Source of the DNA: Acidobacteriota bacterium | GTDB lineage: Bacteria > Acidobacteriota > Vicinamibacteria > Vicinamibacterales > UBA8438 | Length of the DNA: 32,355 nt | Assembly (NCBI GenBank): GCA_002712885.1 | Contig: PAUN01000072.1 | Location: forward strand, 1 to 32,355 | Reading direction: 5' to 3' | Part shown: positions 11,094 to 30,747 of the stretch, in pieces | How the letters are laid out: the number at the start of each line of letters is the position of its first letter | Position numbering within the stretch: the stretch's first letter is position 1 | Program-made: the position numbers and the translations under genes | The notes under the pieces: generated by a model | The model's input: only the letters and a program-made list of their open reading frames with translations | Database searches by the model: none | What the model was told of the DNA's origin: nothing

Positions 11094-12481
11094 CGTCCGG
11101 TTCGTTGTTCGGTGAGCCGGCGGTGCCCTCGACACCGCGGGCGTCTCCGACCGCTCCACTGGCCGATCGGATGAGGCCGGCCGACTTCGACGAGTTGGTC
11201 GGGCAGGACGAGTTGCTGGGACGCGGTCGCCCATTGCGACATGCCATCGAGTGCGACACCTTGCAGTCGCTCATTCTCTGGGGACCACCGGGCACGGGCA
11301 AGACGACGCTCGCGCGTCTGATCGCGGCCGTGACCGCCTCACGCTTCGTGGCCTTCAGCGCCGTCCTCTCCGGGATCAAGGACATCCGCGCGGTGATGGC
11401 AGAAGCGGAAGGCGCCAGACATCGGGGCGAGCAACGAACCATCCTGTTCGTCGACGAGATTCATCGGTTCAACAAGGCACAGCAGGACGCGTTTCTCCCG
11501 CGCGTCGAGGCGGGCGATATCGTACTGATCGGCGCCACCACCGAAAACCCGTCGTTCGAGGTCAACGCAGCACTGCTGTCCCGGTCGCAGGTCTACGTGC
11601 TACGTGCGCTGACCGCGCCAGACATCTCCACCATCCTCAATCGGGCCCTGACCGACACGACCCGTGGACTAGGCCGCCACGCGGTCGAGGTCGAACCGGA
11701 CACGATTGCCGCGATAGCACGCCACGCCAATGGGGACGCGCGCACCGCCCTCAACCTACTGGAGCTGGGTGTGGCCGCCGCCGTCGCACGCGCGGCCGAG
11801 GCGGGCGCCGCTGAGCCGGCCTGCCTCGACCTCGCCCTAGCCGCCGACGCCATGCAACGGCGAGCCCTGGTGTACGACAAGGACGGCGAAGAACACTACA
11901 ACCTGATCTCGGCGTTGCATAAGTCGATGCGTAACAGCGACCCGGATGCAGCGGTCTACTGGCTCGCGCGCATGGTCGAAGCGGGTGAAGACCCACTCTA
12001 CATAGCGCGGCGGCTGGTCCGGTTCGCATCTGAGGATATCGGCAACGCCGACCCCCAGGCGCTGGCGCTCACGGTCGCGGCAAAGGACGCCGTACACTTC
12101 ATGGGAATGCCCGAAGCCAACACGGCGCTCGCGCAGGCCACGGTCTATCTTGCCTCCGCCCCCAAGAGCAACGCGGTCTACACCGCCTACGCTCAGGCCG
12201 CCGCTGACGCCCATCGGGAGGTCGCTGACCCGGTTCCGCTGCATCTCCGGAATGCGCCGACCCGGCTCATGAAGCAGCTCGATTACGGCAAGGGCTATCA
12301 GTACGCGCATGACGAGCCGGACGCCGTAGCGGCGATGGATTGTCTCCCCCCGTCGCTCCAGGGACGGCAATACTACGTCCCGACGGCGCGTGGGTTTGAG
12401 AAAGAACTGGGCCGACGGCTGGCCGCGTGGCGCGATCTGAAGACGCGCCGACGAGCCGAGACCAAGGAGCCGACCGACTAG
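11090..12481 (+). CDS. rarA: Replication-associated recombination protein A (MgsA/RarA AAA+ ATPase)
   Basis: RarA (463 residues) is a clamp-loader-like AAA+ ATPase acting at stalled replication forks. Motifs: the N-terminal MRPADFDELVGQDELLG, Walker A GPPGTGKT (65-72), Walker B ILFVDEIHRFNKAQQDAFLP, sensor 1 IGATTENPSFEVNAALLSR, and the C-terminal MgsA part with AVYWLARMVEAGEDPLYIAR and RRLVRFASEDIGNADP. The start GTG overlaps the methyltransferase stop (GTGA). The TAG stop at 12479-12481 lies in the left TA/terminal repeat of a palindromic element. Without that element the stop would overlap the next gene's start (TAGTG). Confidence 0.96.
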   Translation: MTSGSLFGEPAVPSTPRASPTAPLADRMRPADFDELVGQDELLGRGRPLRHAIECDTLQSLILWGPPGTGKTTLARLIAAVTASRFVAFSAVLSGIKDIRAVMAEAEGARHRGEQRTILFVDEIHRFNKAQQDAFLPRVEAGDIVLIGATTENPSFEVNAALLSRSQVYVLRALTAPDISTILNRALTDTTRGLGRHAVEVEPDTIAAIARHANGDARTALNLLELGVAAAVARAAEAGAAEPACLDLALAADAMQRRALVYDKDGEEHYNLISALHKSMRNSDPDAAVYWLARMVEAGEDPLYIARRLVRFASEDIGNADPQALALTVAAKDAVHFMGMPEANTALAQATVYLASAPKSNAVYTAYAQAAADAHREVADPVPLHLRNAPTRLMKQLDYGKGYQYAHDEPDAVAAMDCLPPSLQGRQYYVPTARGFEKELGRRLAAWRDLKTRRRAETKEPTD

Positions 12482-12639
12482 TGCGCCACCGTCCAGATTG
12501 CGTCAAGTCGTCGGGTTCGCGGCGCACCCAGCCGCCAGGCGCCGCAACGAGGAATACTGGCAGTATTTCGAGGAACGGCAACGACGCGGATGGGTGTGCC
12601 GAGGGCACAACGATTGATGCAATCTGGACGGTGGTGCAC
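12481..12639 (+). mobile_element. Palindromic MITE-like element I (rarA / small ORF junction)
   Basis: This is a 159-bp imperfect palindrome flanked by TA (12479-12480 and 12640-12641), within CTAG on both sides. The outer 26 bp are inverted repeats with 24 matches, beginning GTGCGCCACCGTCC on the left and ending GGACGGTGGTGCAC on the right. Both mismatches are G-T pairs on the plus strand. The centre is the hairpin AATACT-GGC-AGTATT (about 12553-12567), preceded by CAGGCG and ACGAGGA and followed by GAGGAACGGCAACG. It encodes no protein. Removal with one TA restores GACTAGTGCCC, in which the rarA TAG overlaps a GTG start. A TA duplication in CTAG is typical of IS630/Tc1-type transposition. 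The insertion is inferred; the palindrome is seen directly. Confidence 0.75.
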
Positions 12640-14697: not shown

Positions 14698-17505
14698 TTA
14701 GTCGGCGGTCTCGAACGCGAGCGCGGACTGCGCGGCGGCCAGGCGGGCCACCGGCACGCGATACGGCGAGGCGCTGACGTAGTCCAGCCCCACGCTATCA
14801 AAGAATCGAATCGACGCGGGATCACCCCCGTGCTCGCCGCACACCCCCACCTTCAAGCCCGGCTTCGCTTCGCGTCCTAGGCGCACGCCCATCTCCACGA
14901 AGGCCCCGACGCCGGTCACGTCGAGACTGGCGAACGGGTCTCGTTCGATGAGCTTACGCGCCTGGTATTGCTTCAGGAACTTCGCCGCGTCGTCGCGGGA
15001 GAAGCCGAAGACCATCTGTGTCAGGTCGTTCGTACCGAACGAAAAGAAGTCTGCCTCGGCGGCGATGGCCCCGGCCGTGACGGCGGCGCGCGGCACCTCG
15101 ATCATCGTGCCCACGAGATACTTCACCGTGACACCCTGTTCGGTCATGACTATTTTCGCGACCCGGTCGACGACCGCGCGCTGGTCATGCAACTCCCGCA
15201 CGTCGCTGACCAGCGGGATCATGATCTCCGGAACCACCTTGACACCTTCCTGGGCCAACAAGGCCGCGGCCTCGATGATGGCGCGCGTCTGCATTTCCGT
15301 AATCTCGGGGTAGCTGATCCCGAGACGAACGCCTCGGTGCCCCAGCATCGGATTGAACTCGTGCAATTGCTCCACCCGGCGCAGCAGACGACGCTTGTCG
15401 GCCAGCTTGCGGGAACGCGGCTTGGACAGCTCGAGACGCGCAATGTCAACCAACAGGTCTTCACGTTTTGGCAGAAACTCGTGCAACGGCGGATCAATGG
15501 TGCGAATCGTGACCGGTTCGCCGCGCATCGCTTTGAACACCCCGTAAAAGTCGGCCCGCTGCAACGGCAACAGTTCTCTCAGCGCGGCCCGGCGGGCAGC
15601 CTCCGTCTCAGCCAGGATCATCCGCTGGACAATCTCGAGTCGGCCCTCACCGAAGAACATGTGCTCGGTGCGACACAGCCCGATCCCCCGGGCCCCGAAC
15701 GCGTGCGCGATCTCTGCCTGGTCTGGCTGATCGGCGTTCGCCCGCACACCCAGACGCCGCACCCGGTCCGTCCACTTCATCACCCGCATGAAGCGCTGAT
15801 AAATGTCAGACTTCGACGCCGGCAGGTCTCCGGCCACCACCTGGAGAATCTCGCTCGGCTGGCTGGTCACCGAGCCGACCTTGACCTCACCGGTCAACCC
15901 GTCGAAGGAAACGTCATCGCCCTCGCCAAGCATGAGGTCTCCCATCTGCAGGCGTTTGCGCTTTTCGTCCACCTGGATAGCGGCGCCGACCACGGATGGC
16001 TTGCCCATCTGTCGCCCGACGACGGCCGCGTGGGAGGTCATCCCTCCGGTCGCCGTGAGCACCCCCTCGGCGACATACATCCCATGGATGTCATCCGGGA
16101 CCGTCTCTTTGCGCACGAGCACCACGCGTTTGCCGGTGGCCGTCCACCGGACCGCGTCGTCGGCGGTGAACACCACCTGGCCTGAGGCGGCGCCCGGTGA
16201 CGCCGGCAGCCCTTTCGTCGTGACCGGAATTCGGGACCACGCGGTTGGCTCGAAGACCGGTGCCAACAGCTGCACCAGCGCCCCGGGCTCGATCAGCAAC
16301 AAGGCGCGTTTGGCGCTGACAAGACGCTCGTCGACGAAATCCGTGGCGATGCGGATCGCCGCGTGACCCGTTCGTTTCCCGCTCCGCGTCTGCAGCATGA
16401 ACAGTCGGTCGTCTTGAATCGTGAACTCGAAGTCCTGGACGTCTTTGTAGTGGCGCTCCAGCCGGCTGGCGAATTTGCGCAACTGTTTGTAGGCCACTGG
16501 CATGATCCGTTCGAGCTCCGCGATCGGCTGCGGCGTCCGGATACCGGCCACGACATCTTCACCCTGCGCGTTCACAAGGAACTCACCATAGAACTCTTTG
16601 GCTCCGGTGGCCGGATTCCGAGTAAACCCGACGCCCGTCGCGGACCGGTCGCCGGTGTTGCCAAACACCATCAACTGCACGCTCACGGCCGTGCCGATCT
16701 CATCCGGAATGTGGTAGATGCGACGATATTCCCTCGCGCGCGGGTTATTCCAGGACCGAAAGACCGCATTACGCGCGAGTCGCAGCTGCTCCAACGGCGT
16801 CTCGGGAAAATTGCGACCGGTCTTGTCCCTGATCAGACCCTTGTACTTCGCCACGACCTCCCGGAGCGCCCCTTCGCCCAGTTCGGTGTCGAGGATGACG
16901 CCGCGCTCCTGCTTGACATCGATCAGCTCGTCCTCGAAGTCGTCCATCGAAATATCGAGCACGACGTTGCCGAACATCTGGATGAACCGCCGGTAACTGT
17001 CGAACGCGAACCGACCGTTAGCGGTCTGACGACCGAGGGCCTCCGCGGTCGCGTCGTTCAGACCGAGGTTGAGGATCGTGTCCATCATCCCCGGCATGGA
17101 GAATTTGGCGCCCGACCGGACCGACAACAACAAGGGGTCGGTCAGTGACCCGAACGCGGCGCCTGCCGTCCGCTCCAGCTCCCCGAGTCGCTCGAGCATT
17201 TCCGCATCCACCGCCGCCGGCACCGTTCGCCGGTTCGCATAGTACAGATTGCACGCGTCGGTCGTAATGGTGAATCCGGGCGGCACCGGAAGCCCGGCGT
17301 TGGTCATCTCCGCCAGTCCGGCTCCTTTGCCGCCCAGCAGATCGCGCATCGAGCGATCTCCATCCGCCTTGCCGTCACCAAAGGAATACACGTACTCCGT
17401 GGCTGAGCGACGTGCCGGCTGCGTGGTCGTTTTCGTCGTCTTGCGACCCACCTTCATCGTGGTCCTCTTCACCGTCTTCTTCGCCGTCTTCCGCTTCTTC
17501 ACCAT
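14698..17505 (-). CDS. ppdK: Pyruvate, phosphate dikinase
   Basis: PPDK (935 residues) interconverts pyruvate + ATP + Pi and phosphoenolpyruvate + AMP + PPi. The ATP-grasp N-domain is seen in LLGGKGAGLAEMTNAGLPVP. The phosphohistidine domain reads TATGGMTSHAAVVGRQMGKP (His near residue 490). The C-terminal TIM barrel shows LCRTEHMF and ends GVCGEHGGDPASIRFFDSVG. Before the conserved EYVYSFGDG start is an unusual tail of about 36 residues made almost only of Lys, Arg and Thr (MVKKRKTAKKTVKRTTMKVG...), absent from typical PPDKs. It lies 8 nt after glyS, an arrangement also common elsewhere (recO-glyQS-ppdK). Usual regulator partners are not in the window. Confidence 0.97.
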   Translation of the reverse strand: MVKKRKTAKKTVKRTTMKVGRKTTKTTTQPARRSATEYVYSFGDGKADGDRSMRDLLGGKGAGLAEMTNAGLPVPPGFTITTDACNLYYANRRTVPAAVDAEMLERLGELERTAGAAFGSLTDPLLLSVRSGAKFSMPGMMDTILNLGLNDATAEALGRQTANGRFAFDSYRRFIQMFGNVVLDISMDDFEDELIDVKQERGVILDTELGEGALREVVAKYKGLIRDKTGRNFPETPLEQLRLARNAVFRSWNNPRAREYRRIYHIPDEIGTAVSVQLMVFGNTGDRSATGVGFTRNPATGAKEFYGEFLVNAQGEDVVAGIRTPQPIAELERIMPVAYKQLRKFASRLERHYKDVQDFEFTIQDDRLFMLQTRSGKRTGHAAIRIATDFVDERLVSAKRALLLIEPGALVQLLAPVFEPTAWSRIPVTTKGLPASPGAASGQVVFTADDAVRWTATGKRVVLVRKETVPDDIHGMYVAEGVLTATGGMTSHAAVVGRQMGKPSVVGAAIQVDEKRKRLQMGDLMLGEGDDVSFDGLTGEVKVGSVTSQPSEILQVVAGDLPASKSDIYQRFMRVMKWTDRVRRLGVRANADQPDQAEIAHAFGARGIGLCRTEHMFFGEGRLEIVQRMILAETEAARRAALRELLPLQRADFYGVFKAMRGEPVTIRTIDPPLHEFLPKREDLLVDIARLELSKPRSRKLADKRRLLRRVEQLHEFNPMLGHRGVRLGISYPEITEMQTRAIIEAAALLAQEGVKVVPEIMIPLVSDVRELHDQRAVVDRVAKIVMTEQGVTVKYLVGTMIEVPRAAVTAGAIAAEADFFSFGTNDLTQMVFGFSRDDAAKFLKQYQARKLIERDPFASLDVTGVGAFVEMGVRLGREAKPGLKVGVCGEHGGDPASIRFFDSVGLDYVSASPYRVPVARLAAAQSALAFETAD

Positions 17506-19753: not shown

Positions 19754-19910
19754 GGACCCGGTCAGGAATACGTTGATCATTCTGGACGTCGAGGCGCCCG
19801 CCCGGCAAGGCGTGAGGAGTGCACATACCGGGAGTATGTAGGCGACGAACAACGTAGCTGGACGGGATGCATCGGTGGTCAGAGTGGTCAAGTTATTTCT
19901 GATCGGGTCC
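19754..19910 (+). mobile_element. Palindromic MITE-like element II (glyQ / glyS junction)
   Basis: This is a 157-bp imperfect palindrome flanked by TA (19752-19753 and 19911-19912). The ends are GGACCCGGTCAGGAATA and TATTTCTGATCGGGTCC, 15 of 17 pairing, with weaker pairing inside. The two end mismatches and three inner ones checked are all G-T pairs on the plus strand. The centre is ACATAC-CGGGA-GTATGT (about 19823-19839), preceded by GGCAAGGCGTGAGGAG and followed by CGACGAACAACG. Removing it with one TA gives, on the minus strand, GCTTAACCATG: the glyQ stop TAA, 2 nt, then the glyS ATG. Geometry and core match element I, although the terminal sequences differ. The orientation by core motif is plus, opposite to the glyQS transcript. 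Confidence 0.75.
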
Positions 19911-25317: not shown

Positions 25318-25818
25318 CTAGTTCACCGGCAGTCCACCTCGGCGCCGAAGTCGGCGCTCGAGTCGCACCATCTCTCCATCGTCTCGCTCGTGGTCGTAGC
25401 CGAGCAGGTGCAACAGACCGTGCAACGCGAGTCGTCGCCACTCCTCGGACTCGGTCAACCCGGCCGCTCGGGCTTGCCTCGCCGCTCGTCCGGTGGCAAT
25501 GACGATATCTCCCAGACAGGGTGTGGGCGCCGGGCTGAGACCGGCCGGCACCGGATCAGCAGGAAATGACAACACATCGGTGACCTTGCCGATTCCTCGA
25601 AATCGACGGTTCAGGTCGCGCATTTTACGGTCACCGACCAGCGCCACGACGACCTCGCCGACCGCAGAGCGCGGCGCGAGACCAGCCAACCAGGCCGGAA
25701 GGCCCGGGGCTGGCTTGCGCCGCCCGCGACCGTCCGTGACGGTCACCCGCAACTGCGTGGCCCGAGAGGCCCGGGACGTAGCGATTCGAACCTGAGGGTC
25801 CGGGTCGTCCGAGGTCAT
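25318..25818 (-). CDS. ybeY: Endoribonuclease YbeY (rRNA maturation)
   Basis: YbeY (166 residues) is a zinc-dependent RNase involved in 16S 3'-end processing and ribosome quality control. The zinc motif is clear: LHGLLHLLGYDHERDDGEM, preceded by the conserved LNRRFRGIGKVTDVLSFP and LGDIVIA. The N-terminal 25 residues (TSDDPDPQVRIATSRASRAT) are longer than usual and poorly conserved, so a later start is possible, but the ATG at 25818 overlaps phoH by 4 bp, which favours it. Confidence 0.95.
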   Translation of the reverse strand: MTSDDPDPQVRIATSRASRATQLRVTVTDGRGRRKPAPGLPAWLAGLAPRSAVGEVVVALVGDRKMRDLNRRFRGIGKVTDVLSFPADPVPAGLSPAPTPCLGDIVIATGRAARQARAAGLTESEEWRRLALHGLLHLLGYDHERDDGEMVRLERRLRRRGGLPVN

Positions 25819-26894
25819 CTGTCGTTCGCGGCCTGCGCGGGGCGCGGCTCCGTGTCCATCATCTCGCCGGCGCGGTAGAGAGAACCGCTCGGGGTCCCCT
25901 CGGCATAGGCTTCGTACGCCTCGACGATCTTCTGCACGAGCGGGTGCCGCACGACGTCGCGACCGTCGAACCGGGTGAACGCGATACCCTCGACATGCTC
26001 GACGATCCGCATCACTTCGATCAGCCCTGACGTGCGCCCCAAAGGCAGATCGATCTGCGTGATGTCGCCCGTGATAACCGCCTTCGAACCGAACCCGAGC
26101 CGCGTCAGGAACATCTTCATCTGCTCTGGCGTGGTGTTTTGTGCCTCGTCGAGGACCACGAACGCCTCGTTCAACGTGCGCCCCCGCATGAACGCGAGCG
26201 GCGCAATTTCGATGGTACCGCGCTCGAGCAGACGGTCGACACGTTCCGCATCGAGCATGTCGTACAACGCGTCGTAGAGCGGGCGCAGATACGGGTTGAC
26301 CTTCTCCTGCATGTCCCCGGGCAGGAATCCGAGCTTCTCGCCGGCCTCCACCGCGGGACGGGCCAGAATGATCCGCGTGACTTTCTTGGCCGTGAGAGAC
26401 GCCACCGCTTGTGCCATCGCCAAGTAGGTCTTTCCGGTGCCAGCGGGACCGATGCCGAAGACGACGTCATGGCTGTCGATCGCTTCGAGATAGCGGCGCT
26501 GGTTCACGCTTTTCGGGGCAATGTGGCGTTTACTGGACGCTTTCACGGTGGCCCGCACGAAGAAGTCGCTGAGCCGCACTCCGTCGTCCTGCCGCACCAA
26601 CTCCGCCGCGCGGCGCACGTCATCCTGTGAGAGCTGGTAGCCGTGCGTCACCAACTCGGCCAGCTGCCCCACGAGACCCTCCAGTGCCAGGAGCGACGCT
26701 CGGGGACCTTCTGCCAGGAGCGCCGTGCCGTCCGTGCGGATCTGCACGCCAAACAGACGCTCGAACGTCTTGAGATTGGCGTCGTAGGAGCCGAACAGCG
26801 CTTCGACCCCGTCATCGGGGATGGAAATCCGCTCGGCGGTGGTGGTGCTGGGCTCGCCTTGGTCTTGTGGCACGGATAGAAATGATGGTGACAC
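25815..26894 (-). CDS. PhoH-like ATPase
   Basis: The 359-residue PhoH/YbeZ-type P-loop ATPase has an N-terminal KH-like part, a PhoH core with Walker A GPAGTGKTYLAMA, AFMRGRTLNEAFVVLDEAQN (Walker B), TTPEQMKMFLTRLGFGSKAV and ITGDITQIDLP, and a C-terminal FDGRDVVRHPLVQKIVEAYE. PhoH-YbeY neighbours are conserved across bacteria and PhoH is thought to act with YbeY on RNA. The start is uncertain: GTG 26894 is given, but GTG 26873 seven codons later is equally possible because the N-terminus is variable. Palindromic element III lies just upstream. Confidence 0.93.
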   Translation of the reverse strand: MSPSFLSVPQDQGEPSTTTAERISIPDDGVEALFGSYDANLKTFERLFGVQIRTDGTALLAEGPRASLLALEGLVGQLAELVTHGYQLSQDDVRRAAELVRQDDGVRLSDFFVRATVKASSKRHIAPKSVNQRRYLEAIDSHDVVFGIGPAGTGKTYLAMAQAVASLTAKKVTRIILARPAVEAGEKLGFLPGDMQEKVNPYLRPLYDALYDMLDAERVDRLLERGTIEIAPLAFMRGRTLNEAFVVLDEAQNTTPEQMKMFLTRLGFGSKAVITGDITQIDLPLGRTSGLIEVMRIVEHVEGIAFTRFDGRDVVRHPLVQKIVEAYEAYAEGTPSGSLYRAGEMMDTEPRPAQAANDR

Positions 26895-26913
26895 GCTGTC
26901 AGGAGCCGGTCAA

Positions 26914-27022
26914 CGGTTTCCGAGCGAGGCGCCCGTCTGGCGGCGTTGCTGCGTCAGTCACAGCCCGCCTCTGGCTGCTCCCTCCTTACGCCTTGCCAGA
27001 CGAACGCCTCACCCGGAAACCG
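26914..27022 (-). mobile_element. Palindromic element III (aspS / phoH junction)
   Basis: This is a 109-bp imperfect palindrome. Its outer 28-bp arms begin CGGTTTCCG on both strands and match at 24 of 28 positions. All four mismatches are G-T pairs on the minus strand. The centre is CAGCC-CGCCTCT-GGCTG (26961-26977). On the minus strand the core reads GGCAAGGCGTAAGGAG, then the central hairpin, then GACGCAGCAACG and AGACGGGCG, clearly similar to element II (GGCAAGGCGTGAGGAG ... CGACGAACAACG ... GGACGGG). No flanking duplication was found: a TA lies in the aspS stop codon but has no symmetric partner. It is probably a shortened or decayed copy of the same family. Confidence 0.68.
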
Positions 27023-27026
27023 CATC

Positions 27027-28787
27027 TTAGCGCTCTGGTATGGGATCCAAGTGGAGTTCGCGCAACTGATGCGCGCTCACCGTCGACGGTGCGCCCGTCA
27101 TCAGGTCGACGGCCGTGGCCGTTTTCGGAAATGCCATCACGTCACGAATAGACGGCTCTCCCGCCAGCAGCGCCAGGATCCGATCGACCCCGAGGGCAAT
27201 CCCTCCGTGCGGCGGTGTTCCGTATTCGAGCGCTTCGAGAAAAAAGCCAAACCGAGACCGTGCGTCCTCATCGCTGATCCCCAAGAGCTCAAAGATACGC
27301 CGTTGCAGCGGCTGCTCGTGGATCCGAATGCTGCCGCCGCCGATCTCGCTGCCGTTCAGGACCAGGTCATACGCTTTCGCCCGTACCGAGCCCAGGTCGG
27401 TTTCCAGACGGTCTCGGTCCTCGTCACGCGGCGCGGTGAACGGGTGATGCATCGACATGTGTCGCCCTTCGGTCTCGCTCCACTCGAACATCGGAAAATC
27501 AACCACCCAGGTCAGCGCCCGGCGCTGCTCATCGACCACGCCCTCGCGAGCAGCCAGTCTGAGACGCATCTTCCCCAACAACGCGGAGGCCTCGTGGGGC
27601 GCCCCGGCCGCCACCAGCACCAGTCCGTCGTCACCGGCTCCCGCCGACTCGAGGAGCCGGCCCAGCGTCTCGGCCCCCGCCGCCTTCAGAATCGAACTCT
27701 GCACGTCGCCGCCGGGACCACGACGAGCCCAGACCAGCCCTTGCGCCCCGAGCTCGATCGCCTCGTCAACCAGCTTGTCGACCTGGCTGCGGGAGTACTT
27801 CCCCGCGCCCGGCACGACGAGCGCGCGAATCGCGCCCCCTCCGGCGACGACGTCACGAAACACCCGGAAGCTCGACTCGGAGAACACGTCGGACACGTCG
27901 ACGATCGCCATCTCGATTCGCAGATCCGGCTTGTCGGACCCGTACTTGTCCATCGCCTCGGCGTACGGCAAGCGGGGAAACGGGGTCTCGATCGACTCGT
28001 CGTTCGCGGCGAACATAGCCTGCATCAGCCGCTCGACGGCGGTAAAGACGACGTCCTGGGTCACGAAGGACATCTCCATGTCGATCTGGGTGAACTCCGG
28101 CTGTCGGTCGGCGCGGAGGTCCTCGTCCCTGAAACACCGTGCGATCTGAAAGTACCGGTCCATCCCGCTGATCATCAGAATCTGTTTGAAGATCTGTGGA
28201 GACTGCGGCAGGGCGAAGAACTCGCCGGGATGCACGCGGCTGGGCACCAGGTAGTCGCGTGCGCCTTCCGGGGTGGACTTGGCGAGCACGGGCGTCTCGA
28301 TGTCGAGAAAGCCCTGGGCGTCGAGCGACTGTCGCGCCGCCATCAACACGCGGTGCCGCAATTGCATGTTCCGTTGCATCCGATCACGGCGCAGATCGAG
28401 GTAGCGATACTTCAACCGCAGGTCTTCCGACACCGGTGTCTCGTCGGCGATCTGAAACGGTGGTCGACGCGCTTCACTCAACACCGTGATCTCGCGTATG
28501 GCAATCTCGACTTCACCGGTCTCGATTTTCGGATTCAACGTCTCGTCGGATCGGCGCTCGACCGTCCCGCACACTTTGACGACGTATTCCGGGCGCAGCC
28601 GTTTGGTCTGCGCGAGCAGCGCGTCGTCGTCGCGAGCGACCACCTGGGTCACGCCGTAGCGATCCCGGATGTCGACAAAAATCAGTGACCCGAGGTCGCG
28701 CACCCGATGCACCCAACCCATCAGGGTCGCCTCAGCGCCCATGTCGGTGGTGCGTAACGCACCGCATGTATGTGTTCGTTCAGACAC
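27027..28787 (-). CDS. aspS: Aspartyl-tRNA synthetase
   Basis: AspRS (586 residues, bacterial type) charges tRNA-Asp. Seen are the N-terminal OB anticodon-binding domain (GWVHRVRDLGSLIFVDIRDR), class II motif 1 in DIETPVLAKSTPEGARDYLV, motif 2 FRDEDLRADRQPEFTQIDME, the bacterial GAD insertion in the middle, and motif 3 GIALGVDRILALLAGE with the end RDVMAFPKT. Leu follows RD in the OB fold, where non-discriminating enzymes often carry His, which mildly favours a discriminating enzyme. GTG 28787 starts 3 nt after the hisS stop. The TAA stop is followed 4 bp later by palindromic element III. Confidence 0.97.
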   Translation of the reverse strand: MSERTHTCGALRTTDMGAEATLMGWVHRVRDLGSLIFVDIRDRYGVTQVVARDDDALLAQTKRLRPEYVVKVCGTVERRSDETLNPKIETGEVEIAIREITVLSEARRPPFQIADETPVSEDLRLKYRYLDLRRDRMQRNMQLRHRVLMAARQSLDAQGFLDIETPVLAKSTPEGARDYLVPSRVHPGEFFALPQSPQIFKQILMISGMDRYFQIARCFRDEDLRADRQPEFTQIDMEMSFVTQDVVFTAVERLMQAMFAANDESIETPFPRLPYAEAMDKYGSDKPDLRIEMAIVDVSDVFSESSFRVFRDVVAGGGAIRALVVPGAGKYSRSQVDKLVDEAIELGAQGLVWARRGPGGDVQSSILKAAGAETLGRLLESAGAGDDGLVLVAAGAPHEASALLGKMRLRLAAREGVVDEQRRALTWVVDFPMFEWSETEGRHMSMHHPFTAPRDEDRDRLETDLGSVRAKAYDLVLNGSEIGGGSIRIHEQPLQRRIFELLGISDEDARSRFGFFLEALEYGTPPHGGIALGVDRILALLAGEPSIRDVMAFPKTATAVDLMTGAPSTVSAHQLRELHLDPIPER

Positions 28788-28790
28788 GTT

Positions 28791-30044
28791 TCAATCCGTT
28801 CTCACGGCGCGTAGGTGAGCGACCAGGTCGGCCCTGGCCACGGTCTGCTGCTCGCCGGTCTCCATCGTCTTGACCGTCACCTGATTAGTCGCCAGTTCAT
28901 CTTCACCAAGGATCAGCATGTGGCGGGCCCGGCTGCGATTCGCCCGTTTCATCTGCGATTTCGAGGACCGTCCCTCGTAGTCGATCAACGTCGTCAGCCC
29001 GGCCCGACGCAGATCGCGGGCCAAGATGCGAGCCGCGGACCAACTCGGGTCGCCGAGGGCCACCACGAACGCATCCGCGACGTCCATCTCACCGGCTCCT
29101 TCCGGCAGCGCCAGCACCAGGCGCTCGAGCCCGGCCGCAAAGCCGATGCCGGGCCGATCAGGACCACCGAGCTGCTTCACCAGATGGTCGTACCGGCCCC
29201 CACCGAGCAGCGCGTTCTGCGCGCCAAGACTCGTCCCAAGAATCTCGAACGTCGTACGCGTGTAGTAGTCGAGACCACGCACCAGGCGGTGAGACACTCG
29301 ATAGGCCAGCCCATAGGCTTCCAGATGCCGCCGGACCTCGGCGAAGTGACCGCGGCAGGCGTCGCACAAGAAATTTTCCGAATGCGGCAGCTGGTCGATG
29401 ATCGGCTGGTCGGCCGGCACCTTGCAATCAAAAATCCGAAGCGGATTCGTGACACTCCGTCGCTGGCAGTCGCCGCACAACTCGGCGACCCGCTCCCCGA
29501 GCGCGTCGATCAGGGCCTGGGTGAATCGGGGTCGGCACGCGGCACACCCCACCGAGTTGATCACCAACTCGGCGCCCTCGATTCCGAGCTCCGTCACCAA
29601 CGCCGACGCCATCTCGATCACCTCCCCGTCAACCGCCGGGTCAGTAATGCCAAAGACCTCGATGTCCAGCTGATGGAACTGCCGGTAGCGTCCTTTCTGC
29701 GGCCGCTCATAGCGGAACATCGGCCCCAGACTGTACAGCTTGGCGCACGGTAACTCCTGCTCGAGCGCGTGCTCCACAAACGACCGGACCATGCTGGGGG
29801 TCGCCTCCGGTCGCAAGGTAATCCGGTCGCCGCCCTTGTCGGTGAAAGCGTACATCTCCTTCTGCACGATGTCGGTCGACTCGCCCGTCCCCTTCGCAAA
29901 CAACTCTTCCCGCTCGATGACTGGGGTACGCACTTCGGCGTAGCCATATCGGGCGCAGAGATCGCGCGCCACGCCTTCGACGCGCTGCCAGCGGCCCACC
30001 TCGGCGGGCAGGATGTCACGAGTACCACGAATGCTGGGAATCAT
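28791..30044 (-). CDS. hisS: Histidyl-tRNA synthetase
   Basis: HisRS (417 residues) charges tRNA-His. ATG 30044 was chosen because it opens the conserved IPSIRGTRDILPAEVGRWQR; the same frame continues upstream without a family match. Motif 2 is FRYERPQKGRYRQFHQLDIE, the histidine-specific HisA motif is RGLDYYTRTTFEI, and GGGRYDHLVKQLGG and GIGFAAGLERLVLAL follow. The C-terminal anticodon domain runs from about residue 325. A 109-bp structured segment separates it from the carbonic anhydrase gene upstream. Removing that segment would place the ATG directly on the preceding stop (TAATG). Confidence 0.97.
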   Translation of the reverse strand: MIPSIRGTRDILPAEVGRWQRVEGVARDLCARYGYAEVRTPVIEREELFAKGTGESTDIVQKEMYAFTDKGGDRITLRPEATPSMVRSFVEHALEQELPCAKLYSLGPMFRYERPQKGRYRQFHQLDIEVFGITDPAVDGEVIEMASALVTELGIEGAELVINSVGCAACRPRFTQALIDALGERVAELCGDCQRRSVTNPLRIFDCKVPADQPIIDQLPHSENFLCDACRGHFAEVRRHLEAYGLAYRVSHRLVRGLDYYTRTTFEILGTSLGAQNALLGGGRYDHLVKQLGGPDRPGIGFAAGLERLVLALPEGAGEMDVADAFVVALGDPSWSAARILARDLRRAGLTTLIDYEGRSSKSQMKRANRSRARHMLILGEDELATNQVTVKTMETGEQQTVARADLVAHLRAVRTD

Positions 30045-30046
30045 TA

Positions 30047-30155
30047 CGTTTATACGGGGCTGCGCTGCCTCCGCACGTGCAGCCGGCCTTCTACTCCACC
30101 GGGGCTTCGCCCCGAGCCCCACGCGGCCGCTCGGCGAGACCGTGCACGCGGGCGT
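30047..30155. repeat. Structured intercistronic element IV (carbonic anhydrase / hisS junction)
   Basis: A 109-bp GC-rich segment is flanked by TA at 30045-30046 and 30156-30157. Central hairpin CGGGGC-TTC-GCCCCG (30100-30114) is enclosed by possible pairs CGGCC/GGCCG and GTGCA/TGCAC, with large bulges. Terminal inverted repeats are weak, and the core shared by elements I-III is absent. Excision with one TA would leave GCATAATG on the minus strand, a stop-start overlap joining the anhydrase to hisS. This may be another element family using the same kind of site, or a hisS leader. Confidence 0.45.
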
Positions 30156-30661
30156 TATGCCTCGAATTCGTCTTTGTAGCCAACGTAGTTGGACGCGTAG
30201 CGGGTGATCGACTCGGCTTCCTCGTGCGTGGTCGAACGGCGCACTCGCGCGGGGTTGCCCATGACGAGTGACCCTGGCGGAATCTCCATACCTTCGACCA
30301 CGAGGGTCCCCGCCGCCACAATCGAACCAGACCCTATCACCGCACCGTTGAGGACAATGGCCCCCATGCCTATCAAACAACGGTCCTCAACGACACATCC
30401 ATGCAGAATCGCCGCATGCCCCACCGTTACTTCGTCCCCGATCAGTGTGGGATGGGTCTCGCGCTGCACATGGACGACGGTGCCGTCCTGAATATTGGTG
30501 CGAGCCCCCACGCGGATCCGATTGACGTCGCCGCGGATGACGACGTTCATCCAGACACTACTGTCCTCACCGATCTCAACGTCGCCGATGACCTGTGCGC
30601 TGTGATCTACGAACGCCGTGGGAGCTACTCGAGGGGAGCCCGCCCGGTGGGACCGAAGCAT
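30155..30661 (-). CDS. Gamma-class carbonic anhydrase-like protein
   Basis: The 168-residue protein is a left-handed beta-helix built of hexapeptide repeats (VIGDVEIGEDSSVWMNVVIR, TLIGDEVTVGHAAILHGCVV). Three zinc-ligand His are recognisable (VHVQ, VGHAAILHG), as in the gamma-carbonic anhydrase/YrdA/PaaY group, which work as trimers; many members have low or unknown activity. ATG 30661 was chosen over TTG 30670 because the TTG overlaps a -10-like TATAAT. That hexamer ends 8 nt before the ATG, so the mRNA is probably leaderless. The TAA stop is at the edge of element IV. Confidence 0.92.
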   Translation of the reverse strand: MLRSHRAGSPRVAPTAFVDHSAQVIGDVEIGEDSSVWMNVVIRGDVNRIRVGARTNIQDGTVVHVQRETHPTLIGDEVTVGHAAILHGCVVEDRCLIGMGAIVLNGAVIGSGSIVAAGTLVVEGMEIPPGSLVMGNPARVRRSTTHEEAESITRYASNYVGYKDEFEA

Positions 30662-30669
30662 CTGCGGCA

Positions 30670-30675
30670 ATTATA
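30670..30675 (-). promoter_or_regulatory. -10 TATAAT for the carbonic anhydrase-like gene (leaderless)
   Basis: A consensus TATAAT on the minus strand ends 8 nt before the ATG, so transcription would start at or next to the start codon. A good -35 hexamer is not seen. This is probably the promoter of the long hisS-mutL run as well, at least in part. Confidence 0.5.
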
Positions 30676-30747
30676 CGTGGGTTCTCGGGCGAACCTACGC
30701 GCCGAACCCTAGCAGCCCGTACCTCCTGAGTCCGTGGGCGCGCGTGA

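Follow-up and report, generated by a model that had tools for sequence, protein, structure and literature searches.

In the usual view, a MITE consists of two transposase-binding ends and little else. Among the described systems closest to the repeat reported here, RUP of Streptococcus pneumoniae is 107 bp long, occurs in 108 intergenic copies with TA as the target, and has been linked by indirect evidence to mobilisation in trans by an IS630 transposase; the passages of the review that deal with RUP report no other signature of structure or function (PMC2229807). MITEPsy1 of Pseudomonas syringae (100 nt) is found at CTAG or YTAA sites with a 4-bp duplication and is assigned to IS5 with a question mark (PMC3189936). 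The REP sequences, among them the GTAG and CGTC super-families, are abundant extragenic palindromes of 20-40 bp that fold into stem-loops and carry a tetranucleotide tag outside the pairing (PMC3733652).

The DNA analysed (the window) is positions 1 to 32,355 of contig PAUN01000072.1, from an Acidobacteriota bacterium (Vicinamibacterales; assembly GCA_002712885.1). The window's genome (G000) is a MAG (94% complete, with 5.58% contamination reported), and G003 is a sister genome of the same genus. Compared with RUP, as it is portrayed in the RUP passages of the review, the elements described below differ in having a covarying core that is common to families with unrelated ends, and in that their copies often lie on stop codons. 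The insertion sites are of the YTAR (CTAG) type, similar to those of MITEPsy1, for which, unlike here, the relevant part of its description (PMC3189936) mentions no such core. Like the REP sequences, as summarised in the cited section, the elements are abundant extragenic palindromes; unlike them, they are longer, the position corresponding to the tag is base-paired, and the genome has no Y1 transposase match.

Element III and its relatives in the window

The features considered are listed in Table 1. A repeated palindromic element had been noted between aspS and phoH in a preliminary description, and it proved to be real, with exact coordinates: the minus strand forms a near-perfect 109-bp palindrome with the ends GGTTTCC...GGAAACC. 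Its predicted minimum free energy was -81.2 kcal/mol, against a mean of -47.3 for shuffled sequences (z = -9.7; none of the 200 shuffles was as good). The gene names were confirmed by domain searches, in which the phoH product matched the PhoH domain (E = 3.7e-98) and the aspS product the class II tRNA synthetase (D, K and N) and GAD domains.

Table 1. Positions of the features discussed, in window coordinates
Feature	Position	Strand	Evidence
Element III, MITE copy of family A (by sequence comparison)	26914..27022	-	Fold; 139 core copies, all families; family alignment
Element III arms, inverted repeats CGGTTTCCGGGTGAGGCG...CGCCTCGCTCGGAAACCG flanking the core	26914..27022	-	
Core of element III, conserved and folded, GGCAAGGCGTAAGGAGGGA-hairpin-TGACTGACGCAGCAACGCC; tandem G.A steps	26938..26999	-	Covariance-model match, 75.2 bits, E 3e-17; structure counts
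aspS stop codon TAA; TA, likely 5' insertion point, C-TA followed by AGATGCGGTTTCC	27027..27029	-	Sequence; TA duplication at sister copies
aspS, upstream gene, 586-aa frame; domains: class II tRNA synthetase, GAD	27027..28787	-	
phoH, downstream gene, PhoH domain; called start 26873, frame open to 26894	25815..26873	-	
TTGACC adjoining the 3' end of element III; possible -35 box	26908..26913	-	aspS-phoH gaps and upstream stretches read by eye
Element II, MITE of another family, ends GGACCCGGTCAGGAATA / TATTTCTGATCGGGTCC, divergent core	19754..19910	+	Core match, 39.8 bits; missing at the orthologous G003 site
Element I, MITE of a third family, ends GTGCGCCACCGTCCAGATTGCGTCAA, CTAG at both ends	12481..12639	+	Inverted repeat
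Divergent core of element I	12531..12589		Covariance-model match, 22.9 bits, E 0.0065

The block said to be nearly identical to element II, GGCAAGGCGTAAGGAG, lies on the minus strand at 26982-26997 with no mismatches, and its element II version (19804-19819) is one base different. The different central hairpin that had been read as CAGCC/GGCTG is present as GCAGCC/GGCTGT within the palindrome. With up to three mismatches allowed, the block has three matches in the window against 0.23 expected (none of 100 shuffles reached three), and the pattern GGCAAGGCGTRAGGAG, with at most one mismatch, has 20 matches in the whole genome against 0 for a reversed control pattern; a chance oligomer was rejected on these counts. 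A common oligomer with no palindromic context, the outcome against which the preliminary description had set its reading, was looked for and did not occur. The third match in the window (17358-17373, two mismatches) is within a called gene, has no core-model match and probably arose by chance.

Element III had been called a shortened relative of element II. The relationship stands in that the two have the core in common; the shortening does not, because their terminal inverted repeats are unrelated and belong to two different families. Since elements I and II both have divergent cores and other ends, element III is a cousin of element II, and not its shortened copy. By eye, at least five families of terminal repeats with the common core can be distinguished in the window's genome, and the ends of core-bearing MITEs vary by lineage. 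The core can be lost, because a palindrome in the genome G001 (L292, about 1250-1343) is bounded by CAGCCCGTGG ends, and no core is recognisable by eye in its short centre. An IS630 copy is inserted at the CTAG end of this palindrome. Next to the MITE there is often a second repeated module (GACCTCTTCAGACGGGGCTGCGCCCCGAACCCC...GCGCGCC), as in the aspS-phoH gap of G003 (L051/L080) and in several upstream flanks in G000, which gives mosaic repeats.

Element III is short and non-coding, has terminal inverted repeats and belongs to a high-copy family, and target-site TA duplication with an empty orthologous site was found at three sister loci, unseen at element III itself. On these comparisons of sequence it is classed here as a MITE, a non-autonomous transposon. 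In one pair (L233/L112) the sequence without the element is GCGCGCC-TA-GCGTCGACG, and at the filled site the element lies between two TAs; in another (L207/L183) the empty site reads GAGGCCG-TA-GCCCCG; in the third, element II is absent from G003 and the orthologous site is a single TTAG. All three pairs show single-base differences next to the TA. Three copies are intact at both ends; all of them fit a TA duplication, and one fits a 4-bp YTAR duplication. The TA duplication of the sister copies is as in IS630/Tc1-mariner elements, as is the YTAR/CTAG target, the sample being these three pairs and three complete copies only.

At aspS-phoH itself, the 5' end of the element is at the aspS stop codon, and there is no TA on the 3' side and no target duplication, in agreement with the preliminary description. 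The gap in G003 has a 5' part in common with the window and a different and longer 3' half. Because the 3' TA is missing and the 3' half differs in G003, the insertion of this copy is only partly traceable from the sequences compared. Among 23 phoH loci, four matched the core model: those of the window, G003, G009 (39.2 bits) and G015 (41.1 bits). The cores of G009 and G015 lie upstream of phoH in other genera, with that of G015 in the opposite orientation; as four phoH loci have core matches, the slot has been used more than once. By eye, nine loci from other genera (L085, L086, L088-L093 and L100) also show TTGACC upstream of phoH, where it may be a promoter box spared by insertions.

Structure and distribution of the core

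Alignment A2 covered six phylum-level groups with 59 cores, out of 119 distinct ones. Counted with two versions of the pairing, 93.2-93.6% of its cells were paired and 131 changes were double-sided (0 of 500 shuffles did as well); when the structure was slid by one to three columns the pairing dropped to 25-56%. The preliminary description had pointed to substitutions in the apical stem that preserve pairing, and the 59 cores bear this out: columns 25-38 and 26-37 occur as G-C, U-A, A-U and C-G combinations. Column pair 15-48 was G-C in 32 of the 59, C-G in 24 and unpaired in 3; it was complementary in 134 of 138 cores, collected with a pattern that admits only G or C at both sides. Alignment A3, fitted to the covariance model, contained 35 distinct cores, of which 4 were also in A2 and 31 were new; 92.1% of its cells were paired, with 121 double-sided changes. 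In the 31 new cores, pair 15-48 was C-G in 17, G-C in 8, U-A in 3, A-U in 2 and U-G in 1, thus complementary in 31 of 31, one as U-G.

Steps 16/47, 17/46, 20/43, 21/42 and 14/49 were G.A or A.G in 58-59 of the 59 cores and in 25-29 of the 31 new ones. Columns 13/50 were G.A in 36, A.A in 11, A.C in 10, A.G in 1 and G.U in 1 of the A2 cores, never G-C, and G.A in 28 of the 31 new cores. RNAalifold gave a different basal pairing (11-53 and 12-52), which pairs in 59 of 59. The closing pair 22-41 was G.U in 44 of 59 and never A.C, and the plus strand of the element was therefore taken as the folding strand. Comparison thus shows the core to be a covarying hairpin on tandem G.A steps, predicted to fold as RNA or as single-stranded DNA. 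The core is like the structured RNAs of Rfam in its conserved secondary structure with non-canonical steps; unlike them, it falls into no family, since no Rfam score at element III reached the gathering threshold. A known Rfam RNA was rejected for this reason; the permissive matches there were low-scoring, and nine of the eleven were to miRNA families.

The covariance model R1, built from 59 cores, had at least 139 matches in the window's genome at E ≤ 0.001 (among the best 150 of 3200 candidates), all end families included. BLAST of the genome with 126 bases gave at least 44 matches (40 of 155 candidates scored). A DNA search of 60 genomes was positive for the family in 19, including the window's own and all four others of the genus. 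Within the window's phylum the core model matched at least 28 of 247 genomes at E ≤ 1e-4 (22 candidates scored in each). A pattern scan with one genome per species yielded 96 stretches, mostly from Vicinamibacterales/Acidobacteria MAGs, the other carriers being Saprospiraceae, Sandaracinaceae, Myxococcales, Gemmatimonadetes, Nitrospirae, Sphingomonas and one 'Chloroflexi' contig. In seven genomes picked because the core had already been seen in them, the core counts at E ≤ 0.001 were 73 (Myxococcales), 22 (Gemmatimonadetes), 18 (Sandaracinaceae), 10 (Saprospiraceae), 8 (Sphingomonas), 1 (Nitrospirae) and 1 ('Chloroflexi'). We dropped Chloroflexi as a carrier phylum: 727 bp of the contig concerned (L166; CAJWER010000188.1) are 95.7% identical to window positions 29966-30692, so that it is probably a misbinned Vicinamibacterales contig. 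MITEs whose ends are unrelated carry this same core in Acidobacteriota, Myxococcota, Gemmatimonadota, Bacteroidota, Alphaproteobacteria and Nitrospirota. When plasmids were searched with the Sphingomonas copy, none matched. Within G000, L016 (contig C7) and L026 (contig C60) have the same flanks and nearly the same element on two contigs of one MAG, likely a strain variant or a redundant contig. Searches of one literature library, by core strings and MITE end strings in full text and by topic in titles and the openings of abstracts, found no description of the core or of stop-codon MITEs.

Taken overall, the interpretation given in the preliminary description was partly supported; the TA duplication at sister copies, the stop-codon position and the spread over phyla lay beyond its view.

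Stop codons and the candidate transposase

Genes were called with a home-made caller based on codon usage. The 59 core matches in the window and 40 further G000 stretches (66 model matches minus seven weak or truncated ones) lay between convergent genes in 31 cases, tandem genes in 23 and divergent genes in 3, with one inside a gene and one at an edge; in the tandem pairs, 11 elements had the same orientation as the genes and 12 the opposite. A strict count took the copies in which the TA after the 3' end is the in-frame stop of a converging gene, which reads antisense to the element; this was so for 31 of the 50 G000 copies and for 25 of the 44 from G003. The 50 copies are the 66 matches minus the seven weak or truncated ones and nine of other end families, and still include L202 and L232 (nearly one stretch, on two contigs) and L227 (other ends); the 44 are 45 of 55 matches (three duplicates and seven weak or cut ones removed) minus one more that was skipped for a missing flank. 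As the background, non-genic CTAG sites away from the elements were stops in 41 of 121 cases (34%) in G000 and 37 of 85 (44%) in G003. Over all copies the excess on stops was 1.8-fold in G000 (binomial p = 4.5e-5) and 1.3-fold in G003 (p = 0.053, not significant), the sites being not fully independent. When only copies that have a recognisable 3' end and a TA behind it are counted, the fractions on a stop are 31 of 39 (G000) and 25 of 27 (G003), and may be inflated by better preservation of ends on stops. A looser criterion of contact gave 34 of 50 and 26 of 44, its G000 version admitting stops beyond or inside the element, as for L227. Some copies meet the stop at their 5' end, element III on aspS among them, and element I begins on the stop of a gene whose end is at 12481.

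Orthologs of at least 75% identity that are without a family-A element end at the same final residue for four of five genes (L203 twice, L207 and L220), aspS apart; in the L203 orthologs another repeat comes next after the stop. The exception is L222 compared with L168, where the gene ends a few codons away; L203_9348, which abuts a different repeat, was left out of the comparison. In other phyla, where raw open frames were used, contact with stop codons is only suggestive. In G228, whose family has other ends, 4 of 11 copies with a recognisable 5' end are at the stop of frames that stay open for 257-482 codons, and in G001 an IS630 end follows frames that are open for 357-460 codons, to the stretch edge, in three of six loci. 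The simplest account of the residence on stop codons is target preference together with purifying selection.

Frequent use of TAG as a stop is unusual for a GC-rich genome. In the window and L198-L237 the called genes end in TAG 201 times, in TGA 192 times and in TAA 52 times, and within 250 bp of core matches TAG accounts for 62 of 82 stops; because of this last fraction, insertions may rewrite stop codons.

The DDE_3 (IS630) domain was matched in 18 of 29 genomes searched, G000 being one of the 29; G000 (E ≤ 0.001) and G003, in both of which many family-A copies were seen, had no match. An ungapped end scan of 36 IS630 loci of relatives found CTAG at both ends in 6. Six loci of G001 with near-identical IS630 copies (alignments of 1182-1190 bp, one of 1004 bp) were missed by that scan; their ends read CTAG-TCCCCTGGA. 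L301, a core-bearing MITE of another family, begins CTAG-TCCCCTGGAATCGTGA, the first 9-10 nt being the same as in these IS630 copies, and since the two are alike, the comparison supports IS630-type enzymes as the probable movers of this class of MITE. CTAG is a preferred target of IS630. IS630 copies that themselves carry the core were considered and rejected, as the 36 loci (112 kb) gave 0 core matches, and no autonomous partner of family A with GGTTTCC ends was found. Dispersal by an IS630-type transposase is likely.

Proposed mechanism and alternatives

Comparison of copies and genomes shows the repeat, its structure, the TA duplication at sister copies, the frequent position on stops and the common core, and the best explanation of the whole, which we consider probable, is an IS630/Tc1-mariner-type MITE at TA/stop codons with a conserved core that may serve its propagation. 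A trans-acting transposase, not found in the assembly, would recognise the terminal inverted repeats and insert the element at TA within YTAR targets (mostly CTAG), with duplication of the TA. In a GC-rich genome, non-coding YTAR sites would often be stop codons; insertion into TAA or TAG would join TA to the G with which the termini start and give TAG, so that the gene ends at the same last residue and the insertion would be tolerated. The copy of element III would start on the aspS stop (TA+A) and end just before TTGACC upstream of phoH. At the centre of the element would be a conserved single-strand structure, in which two near-invariant tandem G.A steps, together with a looser third one, carry a variable hairpin, with covarying Watson-Crick pairs between the steps. 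As the core is common to MITE families with unrelated ends, it would be kept for something other than end recognition, and may aid propagation by being recognised by a replication, repair or transposition factor on single-stranded DNA or on a read-through transcript. A role of the core in propagation of the element rather than in regulation of neighbouring genes seems the most likely, and fits best because the orientation to host genes is mixed.

Many copies come directly after stop codons, the structure covaries, and the G.U at 22-41 together with the G.A steps indicates that one strand folds; all of this would also be expected if the core were a host cis-acting RNA (a terminator, an mRNA 3'-end stabiliser or a processing signal) and the repeats were kept, like REP/BIME, for the genes that they follow. 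We regard this as unlikely, given the near-equal orientations in tandem pairs, the antisense reading of the genes in the counted 3'-end contacts, the lack of a T-run in the sequence after the aspS copy, and the variation of sites between close relatives. The short, palindromic, extragenic and high-copy nature of the elements, and the CGTC (GACG) motif that borders the apical hairpin in part of the copies, would suit a GTAG- or CGTC-tagged REP/REPIN moved by a RAYT or another Y1 transposase. However, Y1_Tnp (PF01797) had no match at E ≤ 0.001 in the 94% complete G000 against matches in 5 of 14 control genomes, the CGTC position alternates with CCTC and other letters and is base-paired, so that no invariant tag lies outside the pairing, and the elements are about 105-160 bp long with TA duplication; on the domain and tag findings this identity was rejected and is given hardly any weight.

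That the elements are IS5-type MITEs with a 4-bp YTAR duplication, instead of IS630-type with TA, is suggested by MITEPsy1 as it appears in the cited part of its description, with CTAG or YTAA sites, a 4-bp duplication and the queried IS5 assignment (PMC3189936), and for a CTAG target the two readings are indistinguishable. This is nevertheless improbable: the end 4-mers differ in two of the three complete copies while TA fits, DDE_Tnp_1 had no match in G000 at E ≤ 0.001 against 9 of 14 control genomes in the same search, and the IS630 elements of relatives have the same CTAG-G end structure. The partly conserved arms beside the core (GAGGCGCCCG / GGCGGGATGC, by eye) agree with a single ancient MITE family whose ends diverged fast under transposase drift and whose core is simply the slow part, with no function of its own; compensatory double-sided changes and near-invariant G.A steps would be hard to keep without selection, and the same core occurs in distant phyla, so that we doubt this account also.

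Beyond the IS630-type MITE reading itself, we propose only tentatively that the core of about 50 nt may be a structured nucleic acid of a new class, with tandem G.A steps beneath a free hairpin, that travels in otherwise unrelated IS630-type MITEs of several phyla, acting for them by, for example, recruiting the transposase or a conserved host factor to the displaced single strand or transcript, and that the TA-G termini would make stop codons a safe harbour. The TA-G/stop-codon arrangement would give a simple account of how more than 100 copies can reside in a compact genome without gene breakage, and the occurrence of one folded, compensating core, near-invariant in its non-canonical steps, with different end families in several phyla makes a selected function for the interior of a MITE directly testable.
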